DNA of 64,000 bases, taken from positions 4,390,646 through 4,454,645 of the forward strand of contig NC_087391.1 of the NCBI RefSeq assembly GCF_963675165.1. Reading direction: 5' to 3'. The notes below the pieces were generated by a model. It saw only the letters and a program-made list of their open reading frames with translations, did no database searches and was not told where the DNA came from. This stretch comes from Halichondria panicea (Eukaryota; Porifera; Demospongiae; Suberitida; Halichondriidae). A program made the position numbers and the translations under genes. This document shows, in pieces, positions 32,307-60,060 of this stretch (position 1 is the stretch's first letter; each line of letters begins with the position of its first letter).

Positions 32307-32457
32307 CTCGAGGCTAGCTGTGTGCATGACTGTATATAATTATAGGTACTCACTTGGTTGGATCCAGAGTTGGATCTGTCTATATTAAACTATTATATGT
32401 AAACTGAGAAGCTTGTAGATCCTGGTAAATAAATCTATAGACTCCAGTAAGTTGCAA

Positions 32458-33426
32458 ATGGCTCTCAGAGATAATACGTACAGGACATTTTTGTTCCAGA
32501 AGATCTGCCAGCAAATGAAAGACAAAGACATGCGCCACCTTCTGTTCACACTGGAGCTGACTATCTCAGATCTGGAACCAACCAGTGTGTTTATCGAGCT
32601 GGAGAAGAGGGGTATGTTTTCAGCTTCAAATCTAAAACCATTGGCCAAGATGATGGAAAACATCAACAGAAAAGATTTAGCTAAAGAATTGGAGAAGTTT
32701 ATTAAGAATCAAAAGCCTTGTACCCAGGCAAGCAAATCGAGTAGGCAGGAAGCCTTAGCCTTAGGGCAAATCACAGCAACACTTCAGAGCATACAGCAAG
32801 TAACAGCTTTACTTTTGGATCAGCTAGAGGGAATAAAAAGTATTGTTTCCAGTGATGCTCAATACAGTAAGGTTGAACGTGAAATAACAAAGGCAATAGC
32901 CGTGGTTGAGAAGAATCTTCAGCCCAAGATTTCGCTAGCTTCGAGGTCACTACCTCAAGAAAGTATTGACTCACTGGACTGTGCCAGCCCAACACCCAGC
33001 TTAAGTAGTAGCTGTAGCAGTCAAGACAAATCTTCCGAAAGTATGTTAATTATCATTTGCCATTGTGTAGATACATAATTATACATGCAGGCATCAAGAA
33101 GAGGCCACTTCCCCCAACACCTTCAGATCTAGAGTTAGAGGAGAATCAGTACGACGTTCTTGCAAACTCACAGGTACTACTATACAAACTCTGTATATAA
33201 ACTAATACGATAAGCTTTTTAGCCAGACAAAGAGGAAGGACAAGAACTAGAGCAATCCGGTACCTTAAAAAGATTTAATACTGGAGATAGTGGATTCACA
33301 GACTCGAGTAAAGAGGAAGTCATGAGTGATGTACTTAATGCTACTGACCATTGCCAAACGTACACTGTACTTCATCCTGATGCGAGAGAAAAAACTCATA
33401 TTTATGCTCAAGCTTCAGATACTTAA
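32458..33426 (+). CDS. Death-effector-domain protein with tyrosine-motif tail
   Basis: Three exons (32458-33040, 33091-33173, 33223-33426) join in frame to 289 residues, from ATG at 32458 to TAA at 33424-33426. Residues about 8-84 form a DED-like six-helix domain (FLFQKICQQM, DMRHLLFTLEL, FIELEKRGMFS, LKPLAKMMENI). It keeps the diagnostic RxDL motif (NRKDLAKEL). A helical stretch (about 100-155) follows, with a Ser-rich linker after it. The tail has the proline motif RPLPPTPS and the tyrosine motifs QYDVL, TYTVL and IYAQ. DED proteins act as adaptors in caspase-8-type death signalling. The tail suggests SH2/SH3 partners, which would be unusual. No caspase domain is present. The upstream TTG at 32452 is not a plausible start. 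Confidence 0.75.
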
Positions 33427-33704: not shown

Positions 33705-34591
33705 ACAAAATCGATGTACTTTCCTGCAGCTCGAGTGGTAGTTCATTCCATATAGACTAGATATTGCTTTTGGGAAAAAAGAGTTCGCATATGCATTTGT
33801 CCTGCAAATTGGTCTTTCAAACTGTATATTTTTTGTGCTCTTGATTAAGAGGGCATACTCTTCTTTCCAGTGGTGGATCAGGGAATTCCATTTATTACCT
33901 GGTAAAGGTATAATGATAGTTTCAGGTACAATCTTCTTGTGGAAAGGGACGGTATAGGTCCACAGTATCTAATAGGGAGTCGTAGTCCCTATTCCAAAGT
34001 TTTGTGCACATATAAGGGCAAACTTTTGTATTTTGTGAGAATTTGCTTTTTGGTGTGGATCCCAAACAGGGGCAGCATATTCCGTTTTGATCTCACAAGT
34101 GAGATGTAGAGTTGTCTTAAACATTCTAGTGACGAGTGGCCATAGAACTGTCGGTAAATTATACCAACCTGCTTGCAGGCATTTCTGCACATTCCTTCTA
34201 TGTGTTTTGACCATGAGAGGTCATGAGAGATCCACACGCCAAGGTACTTGTAGTGGTCAACTTTAAGTAGGGGACGTCCANNNNNNNNNNNNNNNNNNNN
34301 NNNNNNNNNNNNNNNNNNNNNNNNNNNNNNNNNNNNNNNNNNNNNNNNNNNNNNNNNNNNNNNNNNNNNNNNNNNNNNNNNNNNNNNNNNNNNNNNNNNN
34401 NNNNNNNNNNNNNNNNNNNNNNNNNNNNNNNNNNNNNNNNNNNNNNNNNNNNNNNNNNNNNNNNNNNNNNNNNNNNNNNNCTGATATTGAGACGCATGTT
34501 GGGGAAGTGGTGGGCTGAATTTTCTTGAATTTATACACTTGTTTTGGTTAAACAAGAGTACATTTGTTGTCTCTACGCATGTCTGGCACAT
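33705..34591 (-). pseudogene. Degenerate LINE reverse transcriptase C-terminal fragment interrupted by an assembly gap
   Basis: On the minus strand the readable parts give LKVDHYKYLGVWISHDLSW, LRQLYISLVRS and then, in shifting frames, ADYDSLLD-like, FERPICRTNAYANSFFPKAI and a final NELPLELQ-like end. This is the post-catalytic region of CR1/L2/jockey-type elements. Many stops and frame changes show it is dead. It differs from the element at 3.1-4.2 kb. Bases 34281-34480 are N, so part of the fragment is missing from the assembly. Confidence 0.75.
34281..34480. other. Assembly gap (200 N)
   Basis: An exact 200-base run of N, so the true length is unknown. It falls within the LINE fragment. 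Frames spanning it are meaningless. Confidence 1.
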
Positions 34592-35797
34592 TGCTTGAGT
34601 GCATTAATTAAGAGTTCATATTACTGTAAACGTGCACCACTTCTATAATAATATTATATGTCATGTCATTATTTGGTAATTAATACTAATTGATGTCCAT
34701 GCATGGCAAAAAGTACCTTAAGCTTCACACAGATAACGTTCTACATGTACTGATCATGAGTGTGTGTATACACGCTGCATTACTGTGCTGAACGCCACTT
34801 CTATAATTATGTTGTAATCAATACTAACATGGCAAAAAGTACCTTCACATGCACAGACAAGGTTCTCACATGTACACGTACACTGATGTGCTTTTGCTTT
34901 AACAAGAGCAATCATACATGCATAGTCTGTCGAAATTGGGGGTATTTTCATGTTTCAACTACTGACTCAGCTATAGACTGTAAACACTATATAGTATATT
35001 GAGTATCTAAAAGCCAGTTTCAACCATGCATGCATACCAAGTTCATTGGGTAATCCATTAACATCGATGTCCATGACAAAAAGGTTTACTGCACAAGAAA
35101 TGTAATTAGAATCTACAATGTATAAACTTTATACACTGACAGAAGTGCATTAACACCTGCATGTGTCCAAGAACTAACTGCATGCATGCATGAGTCATTG
35201 TTTTACTGTTTTATAACTGTTAGACTCTATATATAGATCTAGTATGTTTGTATATTTCATGTTCAGAATCACTTTAATGAGTAAAAAAAAGGATTCGTTT
35301 CACGAAATTGCCTTTTGGGCACCAGATCGAACCATGCATGCATGCCTTTAGCTATATATAGTCTCATGAATCAGCTGAGAGGAGCAGCTGATTCACGAGA
35401 CTATAATAGCCCAGTACCTATAGGGGACTTAGAGTTGTACAGGTCTAACCCTCACATACATTAACCCCCATGTTGTACTATATATAGGGGCTACCATGCA
35501 GTGGATTATACCAAGCCTAAAGGTAAGGAGATTAGATCATGTGATTGGTCTAATCCTCACCTATCCCACGTATGCCAGGGGGCATGGGGCATTAGTTTGA
35601 CAAGAGTGCATAATTATAGTTTGATAATCTTTACTGCCAAGAAAAGGGTCATGAAACAAAGAATTCAATCCTGATGAGATCAACTTGCAACTCTTGCATG
35701 CTGAAAAAGAACATTCATTGTCAATGAGCTTGTGCCAAAAAAGTATAATTCATGAATAATAAAGAGCCTTGTAATCCAGCTATAATACGTATATAGG
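34592..35797. other. Left flank of the segmental duplication
   Basis: From about 34.75 kb onward short blocks match 50.24-50.80 kb. Examples are CTTTTGCTTTAACAAG, GGTATTTTCAT, TTTCACGAAATT/TTTACGAAATT, and TCATGAATAATAAAG with TGTAATCCAGCTATAA next to the gene end. They show that the duplication reached past the 3' end of MED16. A hairpin TATAGTCTCATGAATCAGCTG with its reverse lies at 35358-35405. No gene was seen. Confidence 0.55.
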
Positions 35798-37971
35798 TCA
35801 TGTTCGTGAGCCGTTATGCAGTGTCCATGGTGCCCCACAGAGACAGCTGTTGCTCCATCCGCTCCTCCAGTACTGGACAGGGTTGGAGGTCAGACCACTA
35901 GACGAGAGAGAGGTCTGATCACTTTGCAAGCCCTCAGGCGACACTGTCCAACTCCGACACCTGCAAATGTGTACTACACTCAATGTATAAAACAACCCTC
36001 AACAAAGCTTAAGGCTCTGTATACATGCAGTGTAATGACCAAAACATTGTTCCCTAAAGCCTCCATTATTACCAGAGGAGGAATGCCAGTGTCAAAAGGT
36101 TGTTAATTAAAACACTACGTGGCCTTATGTTTTACATGTAAAACTGAGTTCACCCTCATGCCCCTGGGTTTATAGCTTGATCCTTTTTATAATCGCGCCC
36201 CAGTTTGAGAGAAGAGATCTAGATTTTATTGCAACCTTTGACCTTTTATTTTGAAGATAATGGAAAATTAGTCTTCTGCGGTTATAGGGTATACATTCTG
36301 ATGTACTGGCTTGCTGCACTGGATAGATCTACGTATAATAGTAAAGGCAAATAAACAACAGAAGTGCTAGCTGCTATAGCAAAGGTCAAGAACCCAGAAC
36401 AAGTTAACCTTTCAATATTAAATGTGACCCTATATTGACCCTGGCATTCCTCCTCTGCATTATTACGGTGGCCCAGAGAGTTCACAAGAGAATGATTGGC
36501 CTTTGTTAGAGGACAGTACAAGTGACCGTTGCTATAGTGGCCAGTATACACTAGTAGAGAGTACGATTAACCTTCGCTAGTGGAGAGCTAATTTTTTCTA
36601 GTAAAAGATCACCTTTTAGCTAGAGATATTTACCTAGGTACGTAGGGGGCGCTGACCTTATATTTAACTGTTGCTAATTTTTATAGAGCGACAGCATGCA
36701 GGCACAACACTAGCTACTGTAACAGTTCATGAGCTTGTTTGTGTGCTGATGTTTGTTCCTATCTATAAGTTGATTTACATGTATATAGTTGTAGGTTTAA
36801 TTACAATGATTCCTACCTAAGGCTGTTGGGTGAACTTTCAAAAATAGTCAACCCTACTAGCGAAGGTAAACTGTCTACTATCGAAGGTCAATCGCGTACT
36901 GTCCACTAGCAAAGGACAATCGTACTCTTGTGAACTCTCTGGGCCACCGTATACATTATAGAGGGGTCCCACTGTAAGCAACAGGATAAATACACACACA
37001 TTAAAGGTAATATTTGACACAGAGCATACATGTACATGCCAGAATCAACTCATACCCGAACAAAACAAAAACCCATTATTTCAAGTCTGGTTATGCAAAG
37101 ATAATTATTATGCACACACACAAACACACACCTGCTACATTGCTTGAGTTTGGTGTTCTGCACTACGGCTTTGGTCAGCCCTCCTCCATGAACAATGTCC
37201 TTTTGGCCCTCCAAGAAGCAATCCCTCCATGGCGGAGAGAGACCCTTGGGCACCACTAGTGTCAGGGGGGAGTAGGGATCCAGGGAGCTGTAATGTGACT
37301 GGACGCTGGGTCTGATACGACAGGGTTTTCCCCTAATGAAGGACTCGGGCAGCTCAGCAGCTGTCAGACCACTTATGAAACCTGTAGATGAACATTAAGG
37401 TGTATGCAATAATACAGACAATACATTTAGTACGGTGGTGTTTACTTGTTAATAGTAAGAAGTTGTCCTTTACCTTGCAGCTGAGCAGCTTTGCTCAGTG
37501 AGAGAAGGTTGAGATGTAAGATAGTCGGAATGTTGGTGGAGATGTCTAGAGGGAGAAGTAAACACAGTTAAAGCCATATTGATAAATATAGTTACTTCAT
37601 TCTAGCAGCTAGTAAGTTGACAGTAACTTGTTCGGAAGTTTGGGCCAGCAAAAGGGTGCATGTACAGAGAAGGTATGTGTCTACTCACCTTTGAGCAGCT
37701 CATCAGAGAGAGGTGTGGAGGGGGAGTCGAGGTAGACGGTGAGGACCTTGAACAGAAGAGACAGAGCACCATCTGTGAAGAGGGGGAGGAGAAGTTCGTG
37801 AAAGTAATTGACAGGTAGGTACGTATGGGCTAATGGCTTTTCCACAAAACAATTAAAGACCAATAACTAGTATACTGCATGAACTGCACATGCACCATAC
37901 ATTATATAAAAACCAAATAACCAGTTGAGTAGTTATGCCTCGGTGCGCATGCGCAAGCGAGGTATATGGTA

Positions 37972-38002
<31 letters not shown>

Positions 38003-40761
38003 CTGCTACAGCTGCTAAGGATCAACGACAATCAAGTAAGAGTTTCTACAGGCTTCTAGTCATGTTTTTCTGGATATAATTCGTGGATTTGCAATATAGC
38101 CACTGCAGCTTTTCAGAAGAGTGCGTAGCAAAACTTGTCCATAGAGTGTTGCTACTCTACTTAGTATTTAGCTCTGCACTAGAATGCTAGCTATTGGTAG
38201 CTGCAAGAGTGAGAAGAGAGCTGCAAGGCTCTACTGGTGGAGCCATTCTTGGACTTTTGGCATTGATGGTTTTTGACAACAATCATAGTTGATCATTACC
38301 CACTCCTTGAGTTTCTCTGCAGCAAAATTAATGCAAAAATGTTCATCATGATATAATGTGTGTATAGCTAAAATAGCTATAGTACAGCTGTATGTAGCTT
38401 TGACACTTTCACCTCGGCATCAGCACCCGCGGTACTTTTATTCTACAAGTAGTATAGGCTCACCTGTGACCGGTAGAATGGGTTGAGGTAGTGCCCTGTT
38501 CCAGAGGTAAACCAACACCAGGCTCTGTCTCAATAGCCTCAGGGAGAGGTCATCGGGGACCTGTGTGGTGATGGAGGGACAGTATTGGGTTAATAGTGCA
38601 AGGGGGACACTGAAACTGATTGTATACGCTCCTATACTTTACTGCAATCTCTCTCAGTAGGCTATAAGAACATTGTACATTTGTATATAAATGCACTTTA
38701 CGTGACTTACAACAGGCTTTGATTCATCCTTTGCTGCAGCAGCAGCCAAGATGGCCACCAATTTAATGGCTAGGTCCACAACCCAGTGACAGTGGCCTTG
38801 GAGGTGAGCAGACACGTCTAGACATACAATAATTAATGGGTGCGTCATGTCATTCATTTTACAAGAATCTAAAATGACCAAACACATAAAGCAGCTACAT
38901 AGATACATTTTTTATTTCTATACCTACAGTATATACAACTGTACATGTACCTTGAGGAATTATAAAATCCTTTGGATCCAGTTCGTTGACTATCTCTTCG
39001 ATCTTATTCTCACTGGAATTTTCGTCACACACATCTACGAGAAGGGGAGAATGAAAGGGTAACTGTGCATGCACTATTACCACACCCACCATATCCCTTG
39101 GTACCATACCCATCCCATCCCATCTACCATTTCATACCGTCTATCATTTCCCCCGCCCCACGCTCCTCGTCTCGGAAGGTGGGCAGACAGAGAGAGAGCA
39201 GGGTCGTAGTGGCATTCAACCGTGACATCCGACGATATGACAGTGCTGCTAGGAGACCATCAGCCTTAGAGCTGAGGGGAGGCAACAATAGAAGAGAGAA
39301 GGATAATGGGCAATGCACTATACATGTATTCCTAAACAAAGTTAAACATGTGCATGCATACATTTTTAAAGTGTACAAACAACTTTATGTCTGCATCGTA
39401 AACACTGCATTCTAAAAGCACAAACTAGTCATAATTATTGTTCACTTGTAGTTGTCTAGTGAATGTACCAGTGCCGGTCAAGGTCAATCACAAGGCATTA
39501 CATGTGTGGAGCTGCTCACATGCACCCGAGTAATCTCCCTCCCCTAATATACTTTGTCTACATGCAGATACTCTAGCTTGTCACAACATTAGTCTGTCTG
39601 ACCTGTGCAGGAGAGCGGAGGTGGAGTAGAACTGCTGTAAGAGACGACTCTGGGACGAGTTGTTGTTGAAGTCACCAGAGAAATGGTCAAACACTTGGTC
39701 AACAAATCCGACTCCTGATTGTGTGTGTACATGTGACTAGGATAAAATAATGAACTGCACTAACCGTATGTACATAGCTATGAAAACACAACACACTTCG
39801 ATAAGTAAGCATAATTATTGGGTACACAATCTCTATCACATGTTTGGTGAGGGAAGGTCACATATAAATGGTGTACCTTGCTCCTGCTCCAGTCTGCTAC
39901 AAGTGACGGCAAGGTCCCAGGGGGTATGGCCACTGACGAGGGACAGAGAGAGGAGACGAGAGCAGCGGGGGACCACTGGGACAGAGGAGTCTGACGAGGG
40001 AGAGGTGAGAAGTGCGATCATCAATTACAAAAAACCGTATGCCACGTACTAAGGAATGATAATCCTCCATGTATATATAAAATAATAAGCTATCGATTTG
40101 GTAAACCTACAAATGTACATGTACTAGTGAACTTGTGAACCTTTGAGTCCGAGAATGAGCCTGCCAGTGTGATAGAGGAGTACAGTGCTGCCACGGGCAA
40201 CAGCCATACAGCAGGCATTTGGGGAGAGCGTTACCAGGCAACCATGACTGGAATCTGATTGGTCCAACTTCCTTCGCTTAGCAACTGTAAGCAATGCGAT
40301 AAATTAGACGCAACACTATATCATTTTGTGGGGAGCTTAGATTAGTATTATTTACTACTGGATAATCTATAGGGGGGAAGGGGGAGTACACAATGATAGT
40401 CATTAACAAAGATCATAGCATACCTGGAGTGTCAGAGTCACCAGGTACCTGCCACGCCCCCTTTTCCGTCAGCAGTTCCTTGCAAGACCCTCGACTGTAA
40501 AGGGTGACCTCCCCACCCACGGTTCCACACCCCACTACCTCCACAGGCCACCCAGCCCCCTCCTTCATCACATAATCATCTCCAAACACTAGCAACTCGC
40601 TCATTTTGTTCTCAGTGGCAGTCGGATCATGTGACCCGAGACAGAGGGCGGAGCCTGTGAGACTGTGTATGGGGTGGGCGGAACTGTACGATCCGTCGCG
40701 GCGAGACTGATAAGACCCTGATCGAGTGATGTCCTTCACAGACCACTTGTACAGACGACTG

Positions 40762-40795
<34 letters not shown>

Positions 40796-43700
40796 GTGCG
40801 GGGGAGTGTGTGTGTGTGTGTGTCCGGGGGGTGTGCACGCCGTGTCTGTGTGTGTGTGTGGGGGGGTATAGAGTAAGAAGTCGTAATTAGGTAAGGTATC
40901 ATAATTATGTATGTATAAGTTTAGCCTCCTCTACAGGGATCGAGGACCAAGCAATTAAAAGAGAAGAAATGGGTGTGGGGACGAGGTATTATGTAATTTC
41001 TAGGACTTTCTTGTTAAGCTGATAGCTACTAATACGAAGACATGAGAGTACCACTTTGGCTCACTGTTGTAACAGAGGTGAACTTCACAGCCGTCAGAGA
41101 GGGGCAACATCAGCATACTCGTGATCTGCTCTGCATGGGGGAGGGGGTAGGACGGAAACTTAATCGTGACATTTCTGGGAGTACAAAGACCGTGTGTGTG
41201 TGTGTGTGTGTGTGCTCACCTGACTGACTGCTCATCTGATGTAGCTCCGTGGCTAGGGAGGCGGAGAGAGAGAACTCACTGCCCCCCCAAGCCAACCCCA
41301 CACTCACTGAGAACACCTTCACCTGACCACTCTCGTACCCCACACTACACAGGATCGTACCCGCTGGGAGGGAGGCAACAAAGAGTGGGAGTAGATACGA
41401 GTGTAGGGTCAATAATGTATGTACTGTACACTCTTTTAGCTTGCTAGACATTTTGCTTTTACTGTAATGCATTCATTAATGCAGCAAGAATTGGTATACA
41501 TAATACATAGGCTAATGTAAGTAAACACACTTGAACTATACTCATTCCAAACACAAACACATACACACTGTAACCTCAGGCATACTGTACATGTACAACA
41601 CATACACACTGTAACCTCAGGTATACTGTACATGTACAACACATACACACTGTAACCTCAGGTATACTGTACATGTACAACACATACACACTGTAACCTC
41701 AGGTATACTGTACATGTACAACACATACACACTGTAGCCTCAGTACATGTACAACACATACACACTGTAGCCTCAGGTATACTGTACATGTACAACACAT
41801 ACACACTGTAGCCTCAGGTATACTGTACATGTACAACACATACACACTGTCGCCTCAGTACATGTACAACACATACACACTGTAGCCTCAGGTATACTGT
41901 ACATGTACAACACATACACACTGTAGCCTCAGGTATACTGTACATGTACAACACATACACACTGTAGCCTCAGGTATACTGTACATGTACAACACATACA
42001 CACTGTAGCCTCAGGTATACTGTACATGTACAACACATACACACTGTAGCCTCAGGTATACTGTACATGTACAACACATACACACTGTAGCCTCAGGTAT
42101 ACTGTACATGTACAACACATACACACTGTCGCCTCAGTACATGTACAACACATACACACTGTAGCCTCAGGTATACTGTACATGTACAACACATACACAC
42201 TGTAGCCTCAGGTATACTGTACATGTACAACACATACACACTGTAGCCTCAGGTATACTGTACATGTACAACACATACACACTGTAGCCTCAGGTATACT
42301 GTACATGTACAACACATACACACTGTAGCCTCAGGTATACTGTACATGTACAACACATACACACTGTAGCCTCAGGTATACTGTACATGTACAACACAGC
42401 TATAGCCAATCATATTTTGCAGGCAAAGTGTGTCAACAACACTCACTCTGAGTGACATGTGACCTCGCTATGGTAACAGTGCCGCTGGAGGGAAGCTGTA
42501 CTTGTGCCGAGAGCTCTGCCCCTTCCCCTAGATGTGGGAGACTGGTAGAGTCCACTCTCACACAGCCATGACTGGTGATAGAGATAAATCCAGTGCCGAG
42601 AAGCATCCTCAGATGAGGGGAGAAGGGTTGGACCTCCATCACCTCCGACCATTCTGTCTTGGAATGGTGGATCGTCACCTGACGGGGGGGGAATTGTCAT
42701 CTAGTTTGTTAAGGCATCAAATACGTAGTTAGTACAGAGTGCATATAGATACAATGTACAAGGTATAACATGCATTTAAATTGTTGTGGATACAACTTTT
42801 ACTTTCTAATAATGATAAGAAACTCTGTTAAATACATGATTCTTTGGAATACATGCTAATGTACCGGTAAAAAATTAAATGACAGTTGCAATAGTATGCA
42901 AATACGTGCGTGTGAAAACGCCATAATTTCACAATAATTATTCCCACTTCAGATTACACAACATTGGCATTATACTATCAATCAAGTTGCACAATTGCAA
43001 TTAAATAACTCGGAAATCTGACTCCAAGATCTACTTTAACCCATTAGGCACCCATTACCAATGAACACAATAAAACTGAAAGTGGTAATTCCCATAAGAA
43101 TGATAACACATGACAGTGCACTAAAAATATCTCAAAGGCATTGGAGCATAACTCCAATAAAAGGAATGTACGGAGACTAAAGTCTGCATGCCATACAAGG
43201 CTTGAAGCTACGTGCATATAAACTGTACTGCACACAAAGAGAGCTACTTTAAGAAACAGTGCTATACCACCATTCAAGATGAGGAAGCTCCAAGTCATCT
43301 TACTGCTGACTCTCCACATCAGCTTGTCAACCTCAACAGACCAGCTGCTCTGCATAATGCCTGACTGCAACACCACCACTGCATGCAACACCACCACTGC
43401 ATGCCCCAACATGCCCTGTTCCTCCCTCAATGTTGTCCACTCTATCAATTCTTCCATGACACTTCTGTTCCAAGAGGGCACCCACGTACTAACGAAGGAC
43501 ATAATCTTGACTGGCCTGGAGAATGTTTCTTTGATGGCTTACCAAGGAGCTATGGTAACAATACAGTGTGGACCACAGGTTAGGCTGTTATTTCAGGATA
43601 TGGCTAATCTGACTATCGATGGGATCGAATTCATTGAGTGTGGAGCGCATAATAATGCATCAGGAATTACATTCAGCAACCTAACTGGGAGTATAGCAAA

Positions 43701-46700
43701 TATTCGAGTTACAAACAGTTTTTCTGGAGCTGTGAATGTAAGCAACAGTTCGATTAACTTTATAAATATCACAATCGATAACAACAGGATAAACTCCACA
43801 AGTACAACAAGCTTCAGTGCAATGAAAGTCATAAATTCTAACATAGAATTTGCTGGTACTACTCTCATAGCAGGAAATGAAATCTTGCAGGACAATGAGA
43901 TGGAACTCACATGTGGGATAGGCACGTATGAGTACACTGTCATTACCAGTGAAACATTCTCTTGTATCAACAGCACAGTGACAGTGACTGGTACACTAAC
44001 AGTCAGTAACAACACCAGTCCATCAGGGACAATGAACTTTGAGAACAGCAACTTTCAAGCAAATGGAGTCAGCAATTTCAATCATAACACAGTATGCCTA
44101 CACGGAGCCTTGTCTCTAATACAATCAAATGCAACATTCTATGGAGAAACTAACTTTCTAAATAACAATGGCAGTCTTCAGTATTACCCGGGGCTTATAC
44201 CAGTGGGGGCCGTTTCGCTAAGGGACAGCATCTTACTCATGAACGGTAGCATCGATTTCTCTGGTAACCAAGGTGACATTGCTACTATAGAAGCTTATAC
44301 CTCGAGCATAAACATTCATGGAAGCTTAATGAACAGCCAAAACTACGCAACGTACTCGGGGACAATGTTAAGAGCAAACACTAACATGACCGTAAGTGGT
44401 AACATAACTTTCAGAGACAACAATCAAATCAACTCTCTCCTACGAGCAGAATCAAGCAACTTTACTAGCTTTGGTGATATCTACTTCACAAAGAACTTTG
44501 GCTACCCACCATGTCATGGACTAAATTCCTTTTTTAGTTTTAATGGAGTTACAACTTTCAAGAATAACCCGGGAGTAGCGAGGGTTTTTGATACTACGAT
44601 GACATTTAAGGGAAATTCAACTTTCAGTGAGAACAATGTCCGAGACTTCACAGTGGGTGGAGCAATCTCTCTGATAGACAACAGTGAGCTTAATTTGTAT
44701 GGGTTCTATTTGTTTGAGAGAAATAGACTCGCAGATATTGAGGGAGGAGCAATTTACAGCGATAATGGCTACATCACATTCGAAGGACATGGGAGGTTTA
44801 TAGAAAATGTAGCTAGAAGAGGTGGGGCACTGTACTTAAGGAACAACCAAAATATGCAGTTAGAGGCACAAACAATACTGGAATTTATTGGTAACTCGGC
44901 AACCGAAGGGGGTGCTATTTTCGTCTACAGTTCAGTGACGAGCATTGACTGTATAATTACAACGGACAGAGAAGATGATTGCTTTGTTGACTTTAACACA
45001 GAGGAGGGCAACCAATCAATGACATTCGAAAACAATGATTCAACAAAAGGAGGGAGCATACTACATGTAAAGTTTGTGGAAGAGGTCGATTTAGTACACC
45101 AAAAAATAAACTCCTCAACTTTAAATACATTTTCCCGTCTCCCTACAAATGGAAACAGTCAACCTTTGATAGCTTCAGACTCTTTTCAACTTTGCTTCTG
45201 TGATAATGATCTGAACACTTGTAACACTACAGAGAGGCAAATCGTTGTAAGCAGAGGAGAGAAGATAACAGTGAGAATTAAAGCCATTAGTTTAATTCAG
45301 AACAAGGCCATGCACATACGCAGCTATCTACAATCTTCAGCTGATTTTAGGCACCAATCACTGGATGGTGACATACAGCATTTAGAGGAAGGCTGCACAG
45401 ACTTGGAGTATAGAGTGAAATCTACTGGCTCCGAAGAGTACATTACTATATGTGCAGACATATCGTGTGAGGAAGTCTCAGACGTTAAATTAGTTTTGCA
45501 TTTGATATTCGAAGACTGCCCATTGGGATTTGCCATGAATTCAAATAGAACAGAATGTATCTGTGATCAAACCATACTCATGCATTCAACTGAAAAATGC
45601 AACATTGATTCAAGAACGATAACTAAAACCGATCAAAACTTTTGGATTGGAGAACAAGATAAGGACACAAATAAAAGCATGATTTTCTACAAGAATTGCC
45701 CGTTGGATTATTGCACAGCTCCACCAGTCGAAGTGCATCCATCACTACCAGACACACAATGTAGGAATAACCGATCGGGAGTTCTATGTGGAGGATGCAA
45801 AGAAAGCACAAGCCTTGTTCTAGGAGCCTCAAAGTGTGGAGAATGCTCAACCAACTACAACATATTTCTAATCATCCTCTTTGCAATACTCGGAATATTA
45901 CTAGTAGCTTTCCTATTTCTAACTCAATTGACGGTCAGCAGTGGTACTATCCATGGACTAATCCTATACGCTAGTATCATGAACGCTAACTCAGCTATAT
46001 TTGGATTACAAGACGTACGAGTGATAACCGTATTTCTAGAGGGGCTAAACTTGAATTTTGGAATCGAAACATGCTTCTACATGGGATTGAATCAATTACA
46101 ATACACAGGATGGCAATTTGTGTTCCCGATATACCTATGGCTACTGGTAGGCCTGGTGATTGCAGTTTGCCATTTTTCTGTGAGGGCCTCAAGATTTTTC
46201 AGCAATACCAATCCAGTGGCAGTTCTCGCTACCGTCATATTTCTATCCTATACAAAGCTGCTACAGAACGTAATTATCATTCTTTCAGCTGCCCAACCTG
46301 ACTACCCAGCCAATGCAACACAACCGGTATGGATTTACGATGGCAACGTGGTTTTTGGACAGGGAGGTCATGCCGTACTGATTGCTGTAGGGCTATTTGC
46401 ACTGATACTACTCTTCCTCCCTTACACATTTGTACTCTTATTTGCAAAACAATTGGAGAAAAATCGACATGTTTCAAGGCTACTCAATCGACTGAGGCTA
46501 ACACCATTCATACAAGCATACCAGGCACCCTACAAATCAGGTAGCCGGTATTGGGTGGGGCTCTGTCTATTCCTAAGGTTGGTCCTACTGGTTACCATAG
46601 GAACAAGTGGAAACGAGAGCATTAGTCTCCTAGCAACGAGTTCGGTTTGTATACTCATAGTTAGTATAATCGGAATAAGTGGGGGAATATACACCAAGCG

Positions 46701-49605: not shown

Positions 49606-50240
49606 CTTGCAAAGCTAGCTAGATAGTAGTGTTTATTGGGGTCAGAGTTTAACTCAGGGGTTGTAGGTTTGCTGAATCAGCAGTAAATTATTGAATGTTA
49701 CCACACCTTCTCGCCTTTTTTTGTTGCCTCCCGAGAGATCTGGCCTAGGTCTGCATGAGCAAAGCCATCTCTCTCACCAGTTCAAGTGAGGGAAGTATCA
49801 GAAGTAAAAATTGATAGCAGGAAAATTGATTATAGAGTCTACCATTGATCCAAATTGCACATGATTGTGCATTGCAATAGGCCATACCAACTGTTTCTCA
49901 TCAGACTTGAACTAGAAATCGTAAGCGGGAGGGTGCTACAAAAACAAACACAGGCTCGTAACCGGAATTATTATCATGTGATGCAATTGGAGGTTGTAAA
50001 TAATGAAGGTGGCACAGTACATAACCCCACTCCACTAACTTGCCTCTGCAATAACAAAAACTATAGGTGAAAGTTTTTTGAATAATATAGGGAAGGAAAG
50101 TGAGAATAAAAGATTTGGCAAAATTGATTGAATAATTAGCTCAGTTATTGCAGGTGCCCTCGTGCAATTTGCAATATTTGGTATGTTGCACTCGTGCTGG
50201 GCAATAACTAATACATAAAGACAACATTCTACTTGTATGC
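49606..50240. other. 5' flank of MED16 and junction between the duplication copies
   Basis: The right end of copy 1 homology is near 49865: TTGATAGCAGG to GATTGTGCATT is shared with 59699-59762. Copy 2 homology begins at about 50.24 kb. The MED16 promoter should lie within the first few hundred bases. No TATA or other element could be named with confidence. Confidence 0.45.
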
Positions 50241-51609
50241 ATGTACACACTACACTGAAGTACTTTTGCTTTAACAAGCAGCATGCAATGCAACCACACC
50301 TGATCGACAGTGTGTGTCAGAGAGCTAAAGTCGTTGTTGGTATTTTCATCGGAAATTAGCTCATGCATGGAACTATTGATCAGCCTACATGCATAAATCG
50401 ATCTACTACATGTATTGGAATTTTTACAGTGACAATAATTAATTTTATGTTGCGTCACTTTATAAAGTAAATGGATCCACTTTACGAAATTTTGTGTCAT
50501 TCATATAATATGACCTATATATATCTTGGCAGTAAAGATCATCACAACTATAATTGTTAGACTATCCATATGGTTAGACCAACAATAATTGCAAAGGATG
50601 ATGGTATAACTAATTAACAAGCAGATTACAATTATGCAACCATACATTCCAATTTAAGTCTTAGCCCGACAAATAAAAATAAGCCAAGCTAATGGTTTTA
50701 TAAGACATGAAATTCTTATCATGTGCCAAAAAAATCATGAATAATAAAGCAAAAGGGCCTTGTGTAATCCAGCTATAACATGTAGTTAATGTTCGTGAGC
50801 CATTATGCAGTGTCCATGGTACCCCACAGAGACAACTGTTGCTCCATCCGCTTCTCCAGTATACTGGACAGGGTTGGAGGTCAGACCACCCGATGAGAGA
50901 GAGAGAGAGGTCTGGTCACTTTGTAAGCCCTCAGGCGACACTGTTCAACTCCGACACCTGCAAATGTGTATACACTTGTGCTAGGCATAAATTATAACTG
51001 TACACTTTTGAATAACTATAAACAAAGGAACTGAAATGTGCATTATTTCAAGGATAAATACACACACAAGGTGCAATGTACATGCTTGTGCCTGATAATA
51101 TTATTATTTCAAGTCTGGTAATACAAACCGATAATATGCACACACACACCTGCATGCTACACATTGCTTGAGTTTGCATGGTGTTCTGCACTACGGCTTT
51201 GATCAGCCCCCTCCATGTGAACAATGTCCTTTTGGCCCTCCGGGAAGCAATCCCTCCACAGTGGAGAGAGGCCCTTGGGCACCACCAGTGTCAGGGGGGA
51301 GTAGGGATCCAGGGAGCTGTAATGTGATTGGATGCTGGGTCTGATATACGATAGAGTTTTTCCCTTATAAAGGACTTGGGCAGCTCAGCAGTCAGACCAC
51401 TTACGAAACCTGTAGAGATAAACATTAAGGTGTACGCAATCATAATTATAATACAGACAATACATTTAGTATACGGTGGTGTTTACTTGTTGTAAGAAGT
51501 TGTCCTTTACCTTGCAGCTGAGCAATTTTGCTCAGTGAGAGAAGGTTGATTGTAAGATAGTTGGGATGTTGGCGGAGATGTCTAGAGGGAGAGCCACTAT
51601 CAATTGATG

Positions 51610-52290
51610 AATATAATTATGCGCCTCGGTGTGCATGCGAAAGCGAGGTATATGGTCTGTGTGTCTGTGTAGACTGCTACAGCTGCTCAAGGATCAATGA
51701 AGTGCAAGTAAGAGTTTCTATAGGCTTCTAGTCATGTTTTCTTGGATTTTAATTCGTCGATTTGCAAAATAATGCTTGGTTTTCGAGTTATGCCTAGTTT
51801 TTCTTACTTGGAATGTTATTACAGCCTTTTCATAAGAGTGTGTAGCAAAACTTGTCCATGCATGGAGTGTTCCTACTCTACTTAGTAGTTATGCCTCGGT
51901 GTACATAGCGCATGCACAACCGAGATATACGGTAGTGTGTTTGTGTGTCTGTGTGTGTGTGTGTATAGACTGATAATAACAGTACGTTTTGTGCTTTCTA
52001 TTTTTGAACCACACGGCTTGCCATACGGCTTGCCATAAGAACGCTATAGCTATTGGTAGCTGCAAGAGTGAGAAGAGAGCTGCAAGGGTGAGGCAGCCAT
52101 TAATTTTAGCTTTAGACTTTGTACTTTTGGCATCCTTTTTAACATCAATCATGGTCGATCATTTCCCACTCTTGAGTTTTCCCGTGATTTAGACAAATAC
52201 AAATTTATGCAGCAATATTACCTATATTTATGTATCTATTAGCAATAGCTATAGTAGCTATGTAGCTTTGACACATTCACCGAGGCATCA
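51610..52290 (+). repeat. Dispersed repeat, TGCCTCGGTG family, two partly nested copies
   Basis: Starts GCGCCTCGGTGTGCATGCG (about 51620) and again ATGCCTCGGTGTACATAGCG (about 51892), and ends near CACCGAGGCATCAGCACTCG (52279). The ends TGCCTCGGTG and CACCGAGGCA are inverted repeats. The repeat now fills the place of the five MED16 exons missing from copy 2. Confidence 0.7.
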
Positions 52291-55102
52291 GCACTCGCAG
52301 TGCTTTCATTATTATACAGTGGAACCTCCGGACACCATTTGGGAACATAAACATGTGCACGCATACATTTTTAAAGTGGACAAACAACTTTAAGTCTGCA
52401 TCGTAAACACTAAAGCACAAACTAGTCATAATTATTGTTCACTTGTAGTTGTCTAGTAAAATGTACCAGTGCCGGTCAAGGTCAATCACAAGGCATTACA
52501 TGTGTGGAGCTGCTCACACCCGAATAATCCCATCTCCCTCCCCTTGGTCTACATACATATATACTATAGTCTGTCACAACATTAGTCTGACCTGTGCAGG
52601 AGAGCGGAGGTGGAGTAGAACTGCTGTAAGAGACGACTCTGGGATGAGTTGTTGTTGAAGTCACCAGAGAAATGGTCGAACACTTGGTCAACAAATCCGA
52701 CCCCTGATGTGTGTGTACATTGACTAGGGATAAAAGAATGAACTGCACCATAATATAACAAGATGTACACGTAGCTATGAAAACACAACACTTCAATAAG
52801 TAAACATATTTATTGGGTACACAATCTATCACATGTTTGGTGAGGGAGGCCAATATAATTGGTGTACCTTGCTCCTGCTCCAGTTTGCTACAGGTGACGG
52901 CAAGGTCTCAAGGGGTGTGGCCACTGACGAGGGACAGAGATAAGAGATGATTGAGAACAGCGGGGGACCACTGGGACAGAGGAGTCTGACGAGGGAGAGA
53001 TGAGAGGTGCAAAATCATCAATTACAAAAAACCGTATGCCACGTACTAAAGATAAGCTCGATTTGACAAAACCTACATACATGTACTGGTGAACTTGTAC
53101 TACTAAGTTAAGTTTGAGTCCGAGAATGAGCCTGCCAGTGTGATAGAGGAGTACAGTGCTGCCCCGGGCAACAGGTATTCAGGGAGAGCGTCACCAGGCA
53201 ACCATGACTGGAATCTGATTGGTTCAACTTCCTTCGAGCAACTGTAAGCAAAACGATAAGTTGAAAATCGATATGAACGCAACACTATATTAGTTTGTGT
53301 GGAGTTTAGATTAATTATTATTTACTACTGGATAATCCAGCATAACTGGAGCAGAGTACCTGGAGTGTCATCACGTAATCATCTCCAAACACTAGCAACT
53401 CGCTCATTTTGTTCTCAGTGGCAGTCGGATCATGTGACCCGAGACAGAGGGCGGAGCCTATGAGACTGTGTATGGGTGGGCGAAGCTGTAGGATCCGTGA
53501 CGACGAGACTGATAAGACCCTGACCGAGTGATGTCCTTCACAGACCACTTGTACAGACGACTGCCTGTGTGTGTGTGTGAGGAAGGGGGGGGGGTAGAGT
53601 AAAGAAGTTGCAATTAGGTAAATTATGATGTATAAATTTAACCTAGCTCCTCCACAGCCAAGCAATTAAAGGAGAAGAAGTGGGCGTGGGGACGCGGTAT
53701 TATGCAGTTTCTAAGACAAATTTAACTTTCTTGTTAAGCTGATAGCTGCTAGTACAAAGGTATGAGAGTATCACTATGTGAAAATGAATAGCCTATTACA
53801 TGTAGTGTATTAGTCTTCTGTTGGCTCACTGTTGTAACAGAGGTGAACCTCACAGCCGTCAGAGAGGAGCAACATCAGCATACTCGTGATCTGCTCTGCA
53901 TGAGGGAGGGGGGAAACAAAGTGAAATTAGTTACAAAACGTATTGTACACAACGTTTTCTAGGAGTACAAAGAGTACCAGTTGTGTGTGTGTGCTCACCT
54001 GACTGACTGCTCATCTGATGTAGCTCCGTGGCTAGAGAGAGAACTTACTGCCCCCCCCCCAGGCCAATCCCACACTCACTGAGAACACTTTCACCTGACC
54101 ACTCTCGTACCCCACACTACATAGGATCGTACTCGCTGGGGGAGGGAGGCAACAAAGAGTGGGAGTAGATACGAGTGTAGGGACAACAATGCATGTACTG
54201 TACACTATTTGAGCTTGCTACACATTTTGCTTTTGCTTCGTAACACTGTAATTAATGCATTCATTACATAATGCATCTATAGGCCAATGAAAGTAAACAT
54301 ACTTGAACTACGTACTCATTACAAACACAAACACATAGCCTGTGGTGTTTTGGCTAATCTGACCCAATGTATATATACATGTACAACACAGCTAGCCAGC
54401 AACATTCTGTTTTGCGGTTAAAGTGTACACCAACAACACTCACTCTGAGTGACATGCGACCTCGCTATGGTAACAGTGCCGCTGGAGGGCAGCTGTACTT
54501 GTGCCGAGAGCTCTGCCCCACCCCTAGATGTGGAAGACTGGTAGAGTCCACCCTTACACAATTAACCACGACTGGTGGTAGAGATGAAGCTAGTGCCGAG
54601 AAGCATCCTCAGATGAGTCCGACCACTCTGTCTTGGAATGGTGGATCGTCACCTGATGGGGTGGGGGCATTGTCATCTAGTTTGTTAACTGCATCAATAC
54701 AAATTAAGTGTATAGAGCAATAACCAATACAATGTACAAAGTTAAAAACTGCCTGGAAACAGTTTTTTAAGGAAACTGTTTTGAATACATGCAACGTTGC
54801 ATGCATATACCACATAAAAATATGTGCATGACCATATTCATATCACACTTCAGATTCTCAACAATGGCATACCAATCAAACAAATTACACTTGCATGAAA
54901 TTTTAAATGTTCTGACTACAAGATCAACTTGAACCCATTAGGCAACCCATTACAAGTGAAAACAATAAAACTGAAAGTGGTAATGCCCATTAGAATGGTA
55001 AACACATAACAGATGCACTAAACACGTTGCAAGGGCATTGGAGCATAACTATATATGCGAGACTAAAGTGTGCACGCCCTATAAGACTTGAAGCTACCTG
55101 CA

Positions 55103-55108
55103 TATAAA
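55103..55108 (+). promoter_or_regulatory. Candidate TATA box of the second membrane-protein gene
   Basis: CATATAAA 46 nt before the ATG at 55154, at the position equivalent to the one before copy 1. The upstream 250 bp are conserved in patches, with small deletions. Confidence 0.4.
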
Positions 55109-55153
55109 TTGTACTGCACACAAAGAGGAGAAACACTGCTACCATTATTCAAG

Positions 55154-58100
55154 ATGAGGAAGCTCAAAGTCATCTTACTGCTGGCTCTCCACATCAGCTT
55201 AACCACGTCAGACCAGCTGCTCTGCATAATGCCTGACTGCAACACCACCACTGCATGCCCCAACATGCCCTGTTCCCCGCTCAAAGCGGTCAACACTACT
55301 ATCAATTCTTCCACGACACTACTATTTCAAGAGGGCACCCACTTACTAACGAAGGACATAATCTTTACTGGCCTGGAGAATGTTTCTTTGATGGCTTACC
55401 AAGGCGCTATGGTAACAATACAGTGTGGACCACAGGTTAGGCTGTTATTTCAGGATATGGCTAATCTGACTATCGATGGGATCGAATTCATTGAGTGTGG
55501 AGTGCATAATAATGCACCAGGAATTACATTCAGCAACCTAACTGGGAGTATAGTAAATATTCGAGTTACAAACAGTTTTTCTGGAGCTGTGAATGTAAGC
55601 AACAGTTCGATTAACTTTATAAATATCACAATCGATAACAACAGGATAAACTCCACAACAAGCTTCAGTGCAATGAAAGTCATAAATTCTAACATAGAAT
55701 TTTCCAGTACTACTCTCATAGCAGGAAATGAAATCTTGCTGGGCAATGAGATGGAACTCACATGTGGGATAGGCACGTATGAATACACTGGCATTACCAG
55801 TGAAACATTCTCTTGTATCAACAGCACAGTGACAGTGACTGGTACACTAACAGTCAGTAACAACACCAGTCCATCTGGGACAATGAACTTTGAGAACAGC
55901 AACTTTCAAGCAAATGGAGTCAGCAATTTCAATCATAACACGGTATGCCTACACGGAGCCTTGTCTCTAATACAATCAAATGCAACATTCTATGGAGAAA
56001 CTAACTTTCTAAACAACAGTGGAACTCTTCAGTATTACCCGGGGCTTATACCACCAGTAGGGGCCATTTCGCTAAGGGACAGCATTTTACTCATGAACGG
56101 TAGCATCGATTTCTCTGGTAACCAAGGTGACATTGCTACTATAGAAGCTTATACCTCAAGCATAAACATTCAGGGCAGCCTAATGAACAGCCAAAACTAT
56201 GCAACGTACTCGGGGACTATGTTAAGAGCAAACACTAACATGACCGTAAGTGGTAACATAACTTTCAGAGACAACAATCAAATCAACTCTCTCCTACGAG
56301 CAGAATCAAGTAACTTTACTAGCTTTGGTGATATCTATTTCACAAGGAACTTCGGCTACCCGCCATGTCATGGACTAAATTCCTTCTTTATTTTTAATGG
56401 AGTCACCATTTTCAAGAATAACCCGGGAGTAGCGAGAGTTTTTGATACTGCAATAACATTTAATGGAAACTCAACTTTCAGTGAGAACAATGTCCGAGAC
56501 TTCACAGTGGGTGGAGCAATATCTCTGATAGACAACAGTGAGCTTAATTTGTATGGGTTGTACTTGTTTGAGAGAAATAGACTCGCAGATATTGAGGGAG
56601 GAGCAATTTACAGCGATAATGGCTACATCACATTCGAAGGACATGGGAGGTTTATAGAAAATGCAGCTAGAAGAGGTGGGGCACTGTACTTAAGGAACAA
56701 CCAAAATATGCAGTTAGAGGCACAAACAATACTGGAATTTATTGGTAACTCGGCAACCGAAGGGGGTGCTATTTTCGTCTACAGTTCAGTGACGAGCATT
56801 GACTGTATAATTACAACGGACAGAGAAGATGATTGCTTTGTTGACTTTAACACAGAGGAGGGCAACCAATCAATGATATTCGAAAACAATGATTCAACAA
56901 AAGGAGGGAGCATACTACATGTAAAGTTTGTGGAAGAGATCGATTTAGTATACCAAAAAATAAACTTCTCAACTTTAAATACATTTTCCCATCTCCCTAC
57001 AAATGGAAACAGTCAACCTTTGATAACTTCAGACTCTTTTCAACTTTGTTTCTGTGATAATGATCTGAACACTTGTAACACTACAGAGAGGCAAATCGTT
57101 TTAAGCAGAGGAGAGAAGATAACAGTGAGAATTAAAGCCATTACTTTAATTCAGAACAAGGCCATGCACATACGCAGCTATCTACAATCTTCAGCTGATT
57201 TTAGGCACCAATCACTGGATGGTGACATACAGCATTTAGAGGAAGGCTGCACAGACTTGGAGTATAGAGTGAAATCTACTGGCTCCGAAGAGTACATTAC
57301 TATATGTGCAGACATATCGTGTGAGGAAGTCTCAGACGTTAAATTAGTTTTGCATTTGATATTCAAAGACTGCCCTTTGGGATTTGCCATGAATTTAAAT
57401 AGAACAGAGTGTATCTGTGATCAAAACATACTCATGCATTCAACTGAAAAATGCAACATTGATACAAGAACGATAATGAAAACCGATCAAAACTTTTGGA
57501 TAGGGGAGCAAGTAAAAGACACCAACAAAAGCATGATTTTCTACAAGAATTGCCCGTTGGATTATTGCACAGCTCCACCATTCGAAGTGCATCCATCACT
57601 ACCAGACACACAATGTAGGAACAACCGATCGGGAATTCTATGTGGAGGCTGCAAAGAAAGCACAAGCCTTGTTCTAGGAGCCTCAAAGTGTGGAGAATGC
57701 TCAACCAACTACAACATAATATTATTTCTAATTATCTTTTTTGCAATACTCGGAATATTACTAGTAGCTTTCCTGTTTCTAACTCAATTGACGGTCAGCA
57801 GTGGTACTATCCATGGACTAATCCTTTACGCTAGCATCGTGAACGCTAACTCGGCTATATTCGGACTACAAGACCTACGAGTGATAACCGTATTTCTAGA
57901 GGGGCTAAACTTGAATTTTGGAATCGAAACTTGCTTCTACATGGGAATGAATCAACTACAATACACAGGATGGCAATTTGTGTTCCCGATATACCTATGG
58001 CTACTGGTAGGCCTGGTGATTGTAATCTGCCATTTTTCTGTGAGGGTCTCAAGATTTTTCAGTAATACCAACCCAGTGGCAGTTCTCGCTACCGTCATAT

Positions 58101-58945
58101 TTCTATCCTATACAAAGCTGCTACAGAACGTAATTGTCATTCTTTCAGCTGCCCAACCCGGCCCAGCCAATGCAACACAACCGGTATGGATTTACGATGG
58201 CAACGTGGTTTTCGGACAGGGAGGTCATGCCGTACTGATTGCTGTAGGTTTATTTGCATTGATACTACTCTTCCTCCCTTACACATTTGTACTCTTATTT
58301 GCACAACAATTAGAGAAAAATCGACGTGCTTCAATGCTACTCAATCGACTGAGGCTAACACCATTCATACAAGCATACCAGGCACCCTACAAACCAGGTA
58401 GCCGCTACTGGGTGGGGCTCTGTCTATTCCTGAAGTGGGTCCTATTGGTTATCATAGGAACAAGTGGAAACGAAAACATTGGTCTCCTAGCAACGAGTTC
58501 GGTTTGTATACTCATATTTAGTATAATCGGAATAAGTGGGGGAATATACACCAAGCGATGGCTCGATGCATTAGAGATATTGTACATCTTAAACCTAGGC
58601 TTGTTCACCGTGACAACCTATCATCTAAAACTCAGTTACCAGCCAAACGAAAGAATGATTGGGAAGCACGTGATTGGATACATCTCTATAACCGTTTCCC
58701 TCATAACATTTATCGGTGTTGTCACAAAGCAGTGTTACACTCGACTAATGAAGACACAGCGGTTCATGAAAGCAAAGGACAAGCTCATAAGGAAGAGGAG
58801 CATGGACACAGAGCTAACAGATTCTGACAAGCCCAAGCAAAACAATTCGAGGAAGGTGAGTGTAGTGACCTCAACAGAAATGGTGTTCACAGACGATAAT
58901 TTACTGATGGAACTACGAGAACCGATGTTGGACTACATCTCCTGA
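55154..58945 (+). CDS. Secreted-repeat multipass membrane protein with Pmp-like repeats, copy 2
   Basis: Intact single-exon frame of 1263 aa. The start is the ATG at 55154 (MRKLKVILLLALHISLTTS signal peptide), matching copy 1; the upstream TTG at 55088 is not a start. The domain order is the same: Asn-rich glycosylated beta-helix-like ectodomain with F-x-x-N/GGA(I/L) repeats, Cys-rich stretch, about nine membrane segments, and an identical C-terminal tail (TDDNLLMELREPMLDYIS). Differences from copy 1 are scattered single substitutions and in-frame indels. Examples are one instead of two NTTTAC units near the N terminus, loss of a two-residue ST, an extra Pro in GLIPPVG, and IILFL for IFL in the first membrane segment. 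No stop or frameshift was found, so purifying selection is likely. It is embedded in the remains of MED16 copy 2. Confidence 0.85.
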   Translation: MRKLKVILLLALHISLTTSDQLLCIMPDCNTTTACPNMPCSPLKAVNTTINSSTTLLFQEGTHLLTKDIIFTGLENVSLMAYQGAMVTIQCGPQVRLLFQDMANLTIDGIEFIECGVHNNAPGITFSNLTGSIVNIRVTNSFSGAVNVSNSSINFINITIDNNRINSTTSFSAMKVINSNIEFSSTTLIAGNEILLGNEMELTCGIGTYEYTGITSETFSCINSTVTVTGTLTVSNNTSPSGTMNFENSNFQANGVSNFNHNTVCLHGALSLIQSNATFYGETNFLNNSGTLQYYPGLIPPVGAISLRDSILLMNGSIDFSGNQGDIATIEAYTSSINIQGSLMNSQNYATYSGTMLRANTNMTVSGNITFRDNNQINSLLRAESSNFTSFGDIYFTRNFGYPPCHGLNSFFIFNGVTIFKNNPGVARVFDTAITFNGNSTFSENNVRDFTVGGAISLIDNSELNLYGLYLFERNRLADIEGGAIYSDNGYITFEGHGRFIENAARRGGALYLRNNQNMQLEAQTILEFIGNSATEGGAIFVYSSVTSIDCIITTDREDDCFVDFNTEEGNQSMIFENNDSTKGGSILHVKFVEEIDLVYQKINFSTLNTFSHLPTNGNSQPLITSDSFQLCFCDNDLNTCNTTERQIVLSRGEKITVRIKAITLIQNKAMHIRSYLQSSADFRHQSLDGDIQHLEEGCTDLEYRVKSTGSEEYITICADISCEEVSDVKLVLHLIFKDCPLGFAMNLNRTECICDQNILMHSTEKCNIDTRTIMKTDQNFWIGEQVKDTNKSMIFYKNCPLDYCTAPPFEVHPSLPDTQCRNNRSGILCGGCKESTSLVLGASKCGECSTNYNIILFLIIFFAILGILLVAFLFLTQLTVSSGTIHGLILYASIVNANSAIFGLQDLRVITVFLEGLNLNFGIETCFYMGMNQLQYTGWQFVFPIYLWLLVGLVIVICHFSVRVSRFFSNTNPVAVLATVIFLSYTKLLQNVIVILSAAQPGPANATQPVWIYDGNVVFGQGGHAVLIAVGLFALILLFLPYTFVLLFAQQLEKNRRASMLLNRLRLTPFIQAYQAPYKPGSRYWVGLCLFLKWVLLVIIGTSGNENIGLLATSSVCILIFSIIGISGGIYTKRWLDALEILYILNLGLFTVTTYHLKLSYQPNERMIGKHVIGYISITVSLITFIGVVTKQCYTRLMKTQRFMKAKDKLIRKRSMDTELTDSDKPKQNNSRKVSVVTSTEMVFTDDNLLMELREPMLDYIS

Positions 58946-59340
58946 TTTAAACTAACAGCAATTATCTGAGACGATTAAACTTTGAAAATCAGTGAAAATA
59001 TTTATGTACATGTACATACTTAAAATAATTTTTGTGTAATCACGCATTCATACAGTATAACCTGTCTATTGTGGTCACCCTACTCGTAAGCATACTCATT
59101 TTAAAAGCTACATGTACATGTCAAATATTTCTAAGAACATTTACAGTTGTCTAAAAGCACACAGAGTAAACTATCACACGGCCCGATGTTAAACTATCAC
59201 ACAAAGTAGATCGAGAGATGGCTATGAGATAAGCAGTCATTGGCTCACCATTGGTCTAGAGTCCAACCACCCCACATGCACAACGTCCCCCACAGAGCTA
59301 CTCTCCACCTTGTTGGCACACACCCAGCTGTTGATGCAGT

Positions 59341-60060
59341 TGCTCTGGAGATAGAGAAAGAGGAGATACAATTAAACCTGTTTCGTATTCTGGGGTCATG
59401 CAGAGAAAGTTTGGGTAGCATAAAACGGCTCAATACGTAATACGATAAGTTAATACTATCAAAGTCAGCTCAAGAGGAGAGACCAGGGCAAACAACGCTG
59501 TGTGAACTGGTATACAGGAAAGAAGCACATTTACAGTGCATTGTATGAGCGCCCACACTTCTAAAATGGTACTCCAGAATGAGCATAAAATAATGATTCT
59601 AGATTGTGCATGTCTACTTAATACTTCAGCTCCATAAGAGTTACAGAAATTTCTTAAATACTTTGTAATTTAAAAGCTCAGAAAGATAGTTCAATTAATT
59701 GATAGCAGGGAAATTAATTGTAGAGTCTACCATTGATCCCAAATTGTATCATGATTGTGCATTCATGATTGCATTAGCTATAGCTAGCTGTGCTTGTAGC
59801 TGCTCACTCAACCTGATTCAGTGGAAACCCAATTCTTATAGGTCCAGTGGCAGGTGGCAGTTGATCCTGAGACTGGTTCTCAAGACAAGCTGTTTGTGCG
59901 AGGCAATCAGGTAGTCGTGGTATTCACCAGAGTTAAAGATTGCGAGGGTGTCGTACAGTACTTGCAGTGTGGAGACAACAGTGTTGCAGGCATTGTGGTG
60001 TCAGTTTGAGGACAGTTCGGTGATGGTGAGTGAGTGGGTGGTACTTGTTAGAGCAAACAT
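59341..60060. other. Right end of the duplication and unique flank
   Basis: To 59698 the sequence matches copy 1 (47617-47966) almost base for base. 59699-59762 matches 49807-49865. Beyond that it is unique. No gene was seen; the short open frames have no domain. Confidence 0.6.

Follow-up and report, generated by a model that had tools for sequence, protein, structure and literature searches.

Duplication of a nested gene pair in the sponge Halichondria panicea: open guest frames beside a decayed copy of MED16

When a gene and the gene nested within one of its introns are duplicated together, do both partners survive? This question is raised by a stretch of 64,000 nucleotides of the sponge Halichondria panicea (hereafter the window; C15:4390646-4454645, where C15 is contig NC_087391.1 in an assembly of 131 Mb and 39 contigs), in which MED16, the gene for a subunit of the Mediator complex, carries in its fourth intron an opposite-strand, single-exon gene for a membrane protein. 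Two collinear blocks, at 35731-49873 (copy 1) and 50722-59763 (copy 2), are recovered by blastn comparison of the window with itself, as had been proposed in an earlier description made from the letters alone (the sequence-only reading). The locus is a clear case of ordinary duplicate sorting, complicated by the exchange of DNA between the copies. Its history probably comprised the following processes: (i) duplication of the nested pair; (ii) retention of the guest gene by selection; (iii) loss of the redundant host gene; and (iv) conversion between the copies.

Host and guest in the two blocks

The MED16 gene of copy 1 lies on the minus strand at 35798-49605 and comprises 19 exons coding for 843 amino acids, according to a model curated by hand using splice sites, phases, PDB and Pfam. 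The exons are located as follows: (i) exons 1-5 at 49605-49478, 49401-49345, 48090-47982, 47616-47521 and 42678-42447; (ii) exons 6-10 at 41363-41220, 41130-41065, 40762-40424, 40284-40141 and 39990-39877; (iii) exons 11-15 at 39714-39603, 39271-39138, 39034-38951, 38817-38711 and 38560-38464; and (iv) exons 16-19 at 37772-37689, 37545-37474, 37381-37132 and 35960-35798. The introns are of the GT-AG type, their phases are compatible, and the 843 codons end in a stop at 35798. Intron 4 (42679-47520, minus strand, phase 0, 4842 bases) is the host of the nested gene. The curated model was preferred to an automatic exon chain, which placed a spurious exon opposite the nested gene and interrupted the MED16 frame with a stop.

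The best matches of the copy 1 protein in the PDB are three solved MED16 chains (E 6.4e-24, 5.2e-22 and 2.1e-21), other WD-repeat proteins ranking behind them, and the Pfam families Med16_bridge and Med16_C reach 56.3 and 31.1 bits (cut-offs of 24.1 and 21, respectively). The propeller family Med16_N is absent among the 14 Pfam families listed; yet residues 17-230 pair with the corresponding region of solved MED16. When the genome was searched with PF11635 (Med16_N), no match was obtained, and the controls likewise gave none. Across the genome, 34 of the 37 MED16 matches fall within copies 1 and 2; the others are one beside the third copy described below, one at C15:4366656, and a weak one on contig C12 (29% identity, E 0.016). 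Judged by these matches, whole MED16 appears to exist at one place only. As a separate observation, intron 5 of copy 1 contains a tandem array (41570-42380), its units spaced about 41 bases apart, visible as repeating frames in the list of open reading frames, and copy 2 has no aligned sequence across most of it.

The nested gene is found on the plus strand at 43279-47088 in copy 1 (N1, 1269 amino acids) and at 55154-58945 in copy 2 (N2, 1263 amino acids), with no internal stop in either. Consequently, the sequence-only reading was right that both genes of copy 1 look intact and that the nested frame of copy 2 is open over its whole length. A genome search with the nested protein reveals a third copy (N3), inverted, 86% identical and situated 1 kb outside the window, whose frame is open over 1257 codons counted from its second methionine. 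The N1 protein has, by eye, a signal-like N terminus; it contains 27 N-glycosylation motifs within the first 800 residues and, by hydropathy, seven hydrophobic segments, all from residue 862 onward. No Pfam family exceeds its cut-off in the nested protein. A chlamydial-type PMP repeat protein was considered and rejected as a resemblance only: Chlam_PMP scores 18.1 bits in N1 (cut-off of 20.6) and is unlisted for N2. A PDB search gave a single match at chance level (E 0.71), and the C-terminal 562 residues, modelled with AlphaFold2 from two sequences, reached a mean pLDDT of 36.1; this model was not used for fold search. The genome holds at least 41 matches to this family at at least 36 places; among the matches listed, nine cluster within 55 kb (C11:5353372-5408363), and 33 other places show 31-39% identity. 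Given this family of single open frames and its size, extra copies of the nested gene may have been useful or, at least, tolerated.

In copy 2, MED16 is now a pseudogene by loss of frame and of exons. Exon-by-exon alignment, adopted because MAFFT run on the whole block set both ends of this copy in the wrong place, locates remnants of exons 4-11 and 17-19 on the minus strand at 50787-59344. Eleven of the 19 exons align (exon 8 over 198 of its 339 bases only) and eight are missing (1, 2, 3, 12, 13, 14, 15 and 16), the number given in the sequence-only reading. The frameshifts that it reported are also present, since 14 of the 18 insertions and deletions (indels) in the 1534 aligned exon bases are not multiples of three, and its tryptophan-to-stop change in the last exon (50787-50957, minus strand) is confirmed as TGG-to-TGA, the copy 1 codon lying at 35950. 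This exon carries, in addition, a 2-base insertion; TGG has likewise become TGA in exon 10, and a further stop, in exon 9, is alignment-dependent. The start codon is found, together with exons 1-3, in a segment of copy 1 (47969-49808, minus strand) without counterpart in copy 2, where the alignment jumps between 59696 and 59697. An AATT microhomology put forward for this deletion junction was withdrawn, as the junction letters lack a shared overlap. With its introns present, its frame broken by frameshifts and stops, its exons partly lost and its whole parent adjacent, copy 2 of MED16 resembles the unprocessed pseudogene of a single-copy complex subunit; it differs in that one of its introns still surrounds an open gene.

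Frame integrity, selection and the timing of the loss

The ratio of nonsynonymous to synonymous divergence (dN/dS) is 0.282 between N1 and N2 (95% interval 0.204-0.388), 0.401 between N1 and N3, and 0.385 between N2 and N3. The sequence-only reading had named a value near 1 in the nested pair as the result that would tell against it, and the value found is not near 1. When changes are polarised with N3 as outgroup, synonymous and nonsynonymous changes number 28 and 29 on the N1 lineage and 43 and 46 on the N2 lineage, which is a deficit of nonsynonymous change relative to neutrality in both (p 1.6e-4 for N1, p 5.6e-6 for N2); the two lineages do not differ in this proportion (p 1.0). Open frames and nonsynonymous deficit together indicate that the nested copies are kept by purifying selection, retention having been proposed for copy 2.

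The nucleotide alignments point in the same direction. Gaps that are not multiples of three number two of eight between N1 and N2 (one of them split as 2+1), six of 13 between N1 and N3, and eight of 19 between N2 and N3; these odd gaps, of 1, 2 or 8 bases, are always paired and sum to 3 or 9, so that the net frame shift is zero. Six introns compared between copies 1 and 2 have 10.7% mismatches and 38 indels in 894 aligned bases, 30 of the indels being frame-shifting. A Fisher test of frame-shifting indels in the nested gene against the MED16 exons gives p 3e-8, but it uses the zero of a codon alignment, in which gaps are multiples of three by construction; hence, the open full-length frames are the firmer statement.

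The MED16 remnants, in turn, have a dN of 0.031 and a dS of 0.147, and thus a dN/dS of 0.208 (0.125-0.331), or 0.221 without exon 4. Dead as they are, their ratio is no higher than that of the nested pair, and the dN/dS comparison, which passes as a check on the guest, does not work as a contrast between host and guest: the pairwise ratio does not separate them and it is frame integrity that carries the contrast. The substitutions in the remnants fall 17, 17 and 52 on codon positions 1, 2 and 3 (52 of 86 on the third), and the 34 nonsynonymous differences seen compare with 65-83 expected if copy 2 of MED16 had been neutral throughout (p 1.6e-5 to 8e-10). Neutral evolution since the duplication is therefore not what is found, as the ratio of 0.208 covers the whole time since divergence. 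The ratio and the codon-position pattern suggest that the second MED16 remained under coding constraint for much of that time and died late, with neutral evolution limited to the last part of its history.

This timing bears on the view of the sequence-only reading, in which a dosage-sensitive Mediator copy decays and the surface-protein copy is retained. On that view, a second dose of MED16 would have been harmful and quickly purged, with nothing to hinder the survival of the surface-protein copy. Such dosage sensitivity would suit a subunit of a large complex that is whole at one place only. Nevertheless, it is judged unlikely: remnants with a coding substitution pattern argue against prompt removal, as does the late death of a constrained second gene, and redundancy alone predicts the same end state and explains the loss equally well. 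We infer that the late death of MED16 in copy 2 is due to redundancy rather than to dosage.

Exchange between the copies and the place of the third one

Divergence along the nested gene is mosaic. In sliding windows, dS ranges from 0 to 0.24 between N1 and N2 and from 0.02 to 0.48 between N1 and N3. The longest run of agreeing sites between N1 and N2 (37 sites, codons 677-745) and that between N1 and N3 (10 sites, codons 17-56) were each reached in none of 10,000 permutations (p 1e-4), in a test that takes the mutation rate as even along the gene, and the runs between N2 and N3 are within chance (p 0.12). By this pattern, the nested copies appear to have exchanged DNA by interlocus gene conversion. 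Furthermore, a near-identical tract outside the nested gene, with four differences in 462 bases, takes in exon 4 of MED16 together with a portion of intron 3 (47507-47968, pairing with 59235-59696); five or fewer differences in 461 bases would have a probability of 1e-16 at the background of 10.7%. Rfam gave no match at gathering scores in 34000-62000 and ARAGORN found no tRNA gene in the window, so no known RNA gene accounts for the tract. It is likely a gene conversion near the guest gene, which extended into a host exon that no longer matters in copy 2.

If the copies exchange sequence, the nested frames might be open mainly because conversion kept overwriting the damage, copies 2 and 3 being themselves under little selection. 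The significant tracts and the N1-N2 dS of 0 in parts of the gene fit this idea. It is, in any case, quite improbable, because constraint persists where recent conversion is lacking (in the 100 codons from codon 350, N1-N2 dS is 0.24 and dN 0.026), the net frame shift is zero in all three nested pairs, and nonsynonymous change is not relaxed on the N2 lineage, which matches N1. Besides, conversion should spread damage as readily as mend it, unless selection chooses. The exchange between nested copies, the existence of a third copy and the dN/dS of 0.208 in the MED16 remnants mean that the "clean test" of selection announced in the sequence-only reading is not supported.

The third copy also bears on whether copy 2 is real, since copy 2 could be an uncollapsed second haplotype set in tandem by the assembly. 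The locus does contain an allele-like pair: the flank of copy 3 (69562-78026 in extended window coordinates) is repeated over 8 kb at -24719..-16555 (L005:5281-10000 into L004), with 0.9-3.9% mismatches, and this repeat begins exactly at the right edge of a scaffold gap of 200 N. Like that flank, it has a scrap of MED16 exon 6 and an ANAPC1-like exon, and the match at C15:4366656 falls within it; collinearity with it does not resume within 78000-134000. The repeat may have arisen by recent duplication or may represent a second haplotype; it is a reminder that the assembly is difficult here. For copy 2, the artefact is highly improbable. To the left of copy 1 there is a scaffold gap of 200 N (34281-34480), but from its end (34481) to 134000 there is no N at all, and copies 1, 2 and 3 therefore share one gap-free stretch; the introns differ by 10.7% mismatches plus 38 indels, MED16 dS is 0.147, and copy 3 is inverted. 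In an allelic haplotig, divergence would be low and a contig break would separate the copies; neither is seen for copy 2.

Beside copy 3, little of MED16 can be recognised: exon 6 in part and, in the vicinity of exon 5, a weak match of 63%. The preferred history, that of a duplicated nested pair with a kept guest and a lost redundant host, could then have run as follows. The block of MED16 and the gene nested in its intron 4 would have been duplicated at least twice, adjacent to itself, once in inverted orientation (copy 3, the earlier event by divergence) and once in tandem (copy 2), so that the duplication of a member of a large family carried a single-copy Mediator gene along. The three nested copies would have stayed open by purifying selection, with conversion homogenising parts of the gene. 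MED16, needed once, would have remained under coding constraint for long in copy 2 before losing exons and frame, and only scrap would have been left of it in copy 3.

Several points weigh against this history. The function of any of the copies is deduced from sequence; the absence of stops is, by itself, weak evidence (p 0.04 on the N2 lineage); and the estimates of the time for which MED16 has been dead conflict, at 2-33% of the divergence time from dN, assuming a constraint of 0.2 to 0.05, versus about 50% from frame-shifting indels. The divergence of the six introns is uneven (2.3-16.4% mismatches), for which reason conversion may have touched MED16 introns too and the neutral rate is uncertain. 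Finally, part of the divergence may predate the duplication, if two different alleles were joined; in that case, too, the pattern would not suggest a prompt loss driven by dosage.

Neighbouring features and meaning for nested genes

Next to the end of copy 2, a plus-strand fragment (59793-60055) is similar to an ANAPC1-like exon with a relative beside the third copy (L001:7612-7870); Pfam ANAPC1 scores 15.9 bits at L001:7393-7842, under its cut-off of 25. Elsewhere in the neighbourhood, the following features can be distinguished: (i) a Death-effector-domain frame at 32419-33075 (Pfam DED, 42.4 bits), its relative about 34 kb leftward (extended coordinates -1753..-562) being 87.8% identical; (ii) a segment, 11577-12812, that matches its own reverse complement (83%), the DNA of 11577-12500 having matches of about 90-97% identity at many places on other contigs, which would fit an inverted-repeat mobile element; (iii) a minus-strand frame of 731 amino acids at 6798-8990, with a COR-A match of 28.2 bits (under the Pfam cut-off of 35.3) and 91% identical DNA relatives at C15:4198857 and C15:4234540; and (iv) a large tandem array at extended coordinates of about -11700 to -9200, its units spaced about 164 bases apart, with inverted relatives at about -4390 to -2770.

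A family member retained and a Mediator subunit returned to single copy is the expected outcome of such a duplication. The locus is real and unusually legible, and unsurprising in principle. Nested genes are described as frequent in sponges and other animals: Amphimedon queenslandica is given 3358 of them, and in Aphrocallistes vastus they number 2432 among 19578 genes (PMC10282587). Likewise, tandem duplicates, duplicate loss and conversion are treated as standard processes (PMC10762295). Like other animal nested genes, sponge ones included, the gene studied here is a whole single-exon gene on the opposite strand within an intron, but here the pair was duplicated and its partners met different fates. 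Similarly, at least 36 places, a cluster of nine among the matches listed, and mosaic divergence are what is seen in a tandemly expanded membrane-protein family with conversion, with the difference that the three copies studied here brought along introns of a host gene unrelated to them. By titles and abstract openings, searches of one open-licence library brought up no paper on the duplication of a nested pair with host loss or on a pseudogene of MED16 adjacent to a nested gene.

Interference in transcription between a host and its nested gene has been discussed (PMC13343718), and the loss of the host 5' end could have been advantageous to the guest, a constrained second MED16 being sacrificed for the escape from such interference. 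With exons 1-3 and the start codon deleted in copy 2, and with no more than a portion of exon 6 and a weak trace near exon 5 recognised beside copy 3, the guest would be free of opposite-strand read-through. This proposal is given a slim chance; if true, it would offer nested genes a route out of transcriptional interference after duplication.

The partners of a duplicated nested pair have the same date of birth, the same place and a roughly equal neutral rate, and they can have different fates, which makes their decay comparable. The trap in this comparison is that pairwise dN/dS fails to distinguish a copy that died recently from one that is alive; frame integrity does distinguish them. Moreover, the exchange between copies can reach an exon of the dead host.

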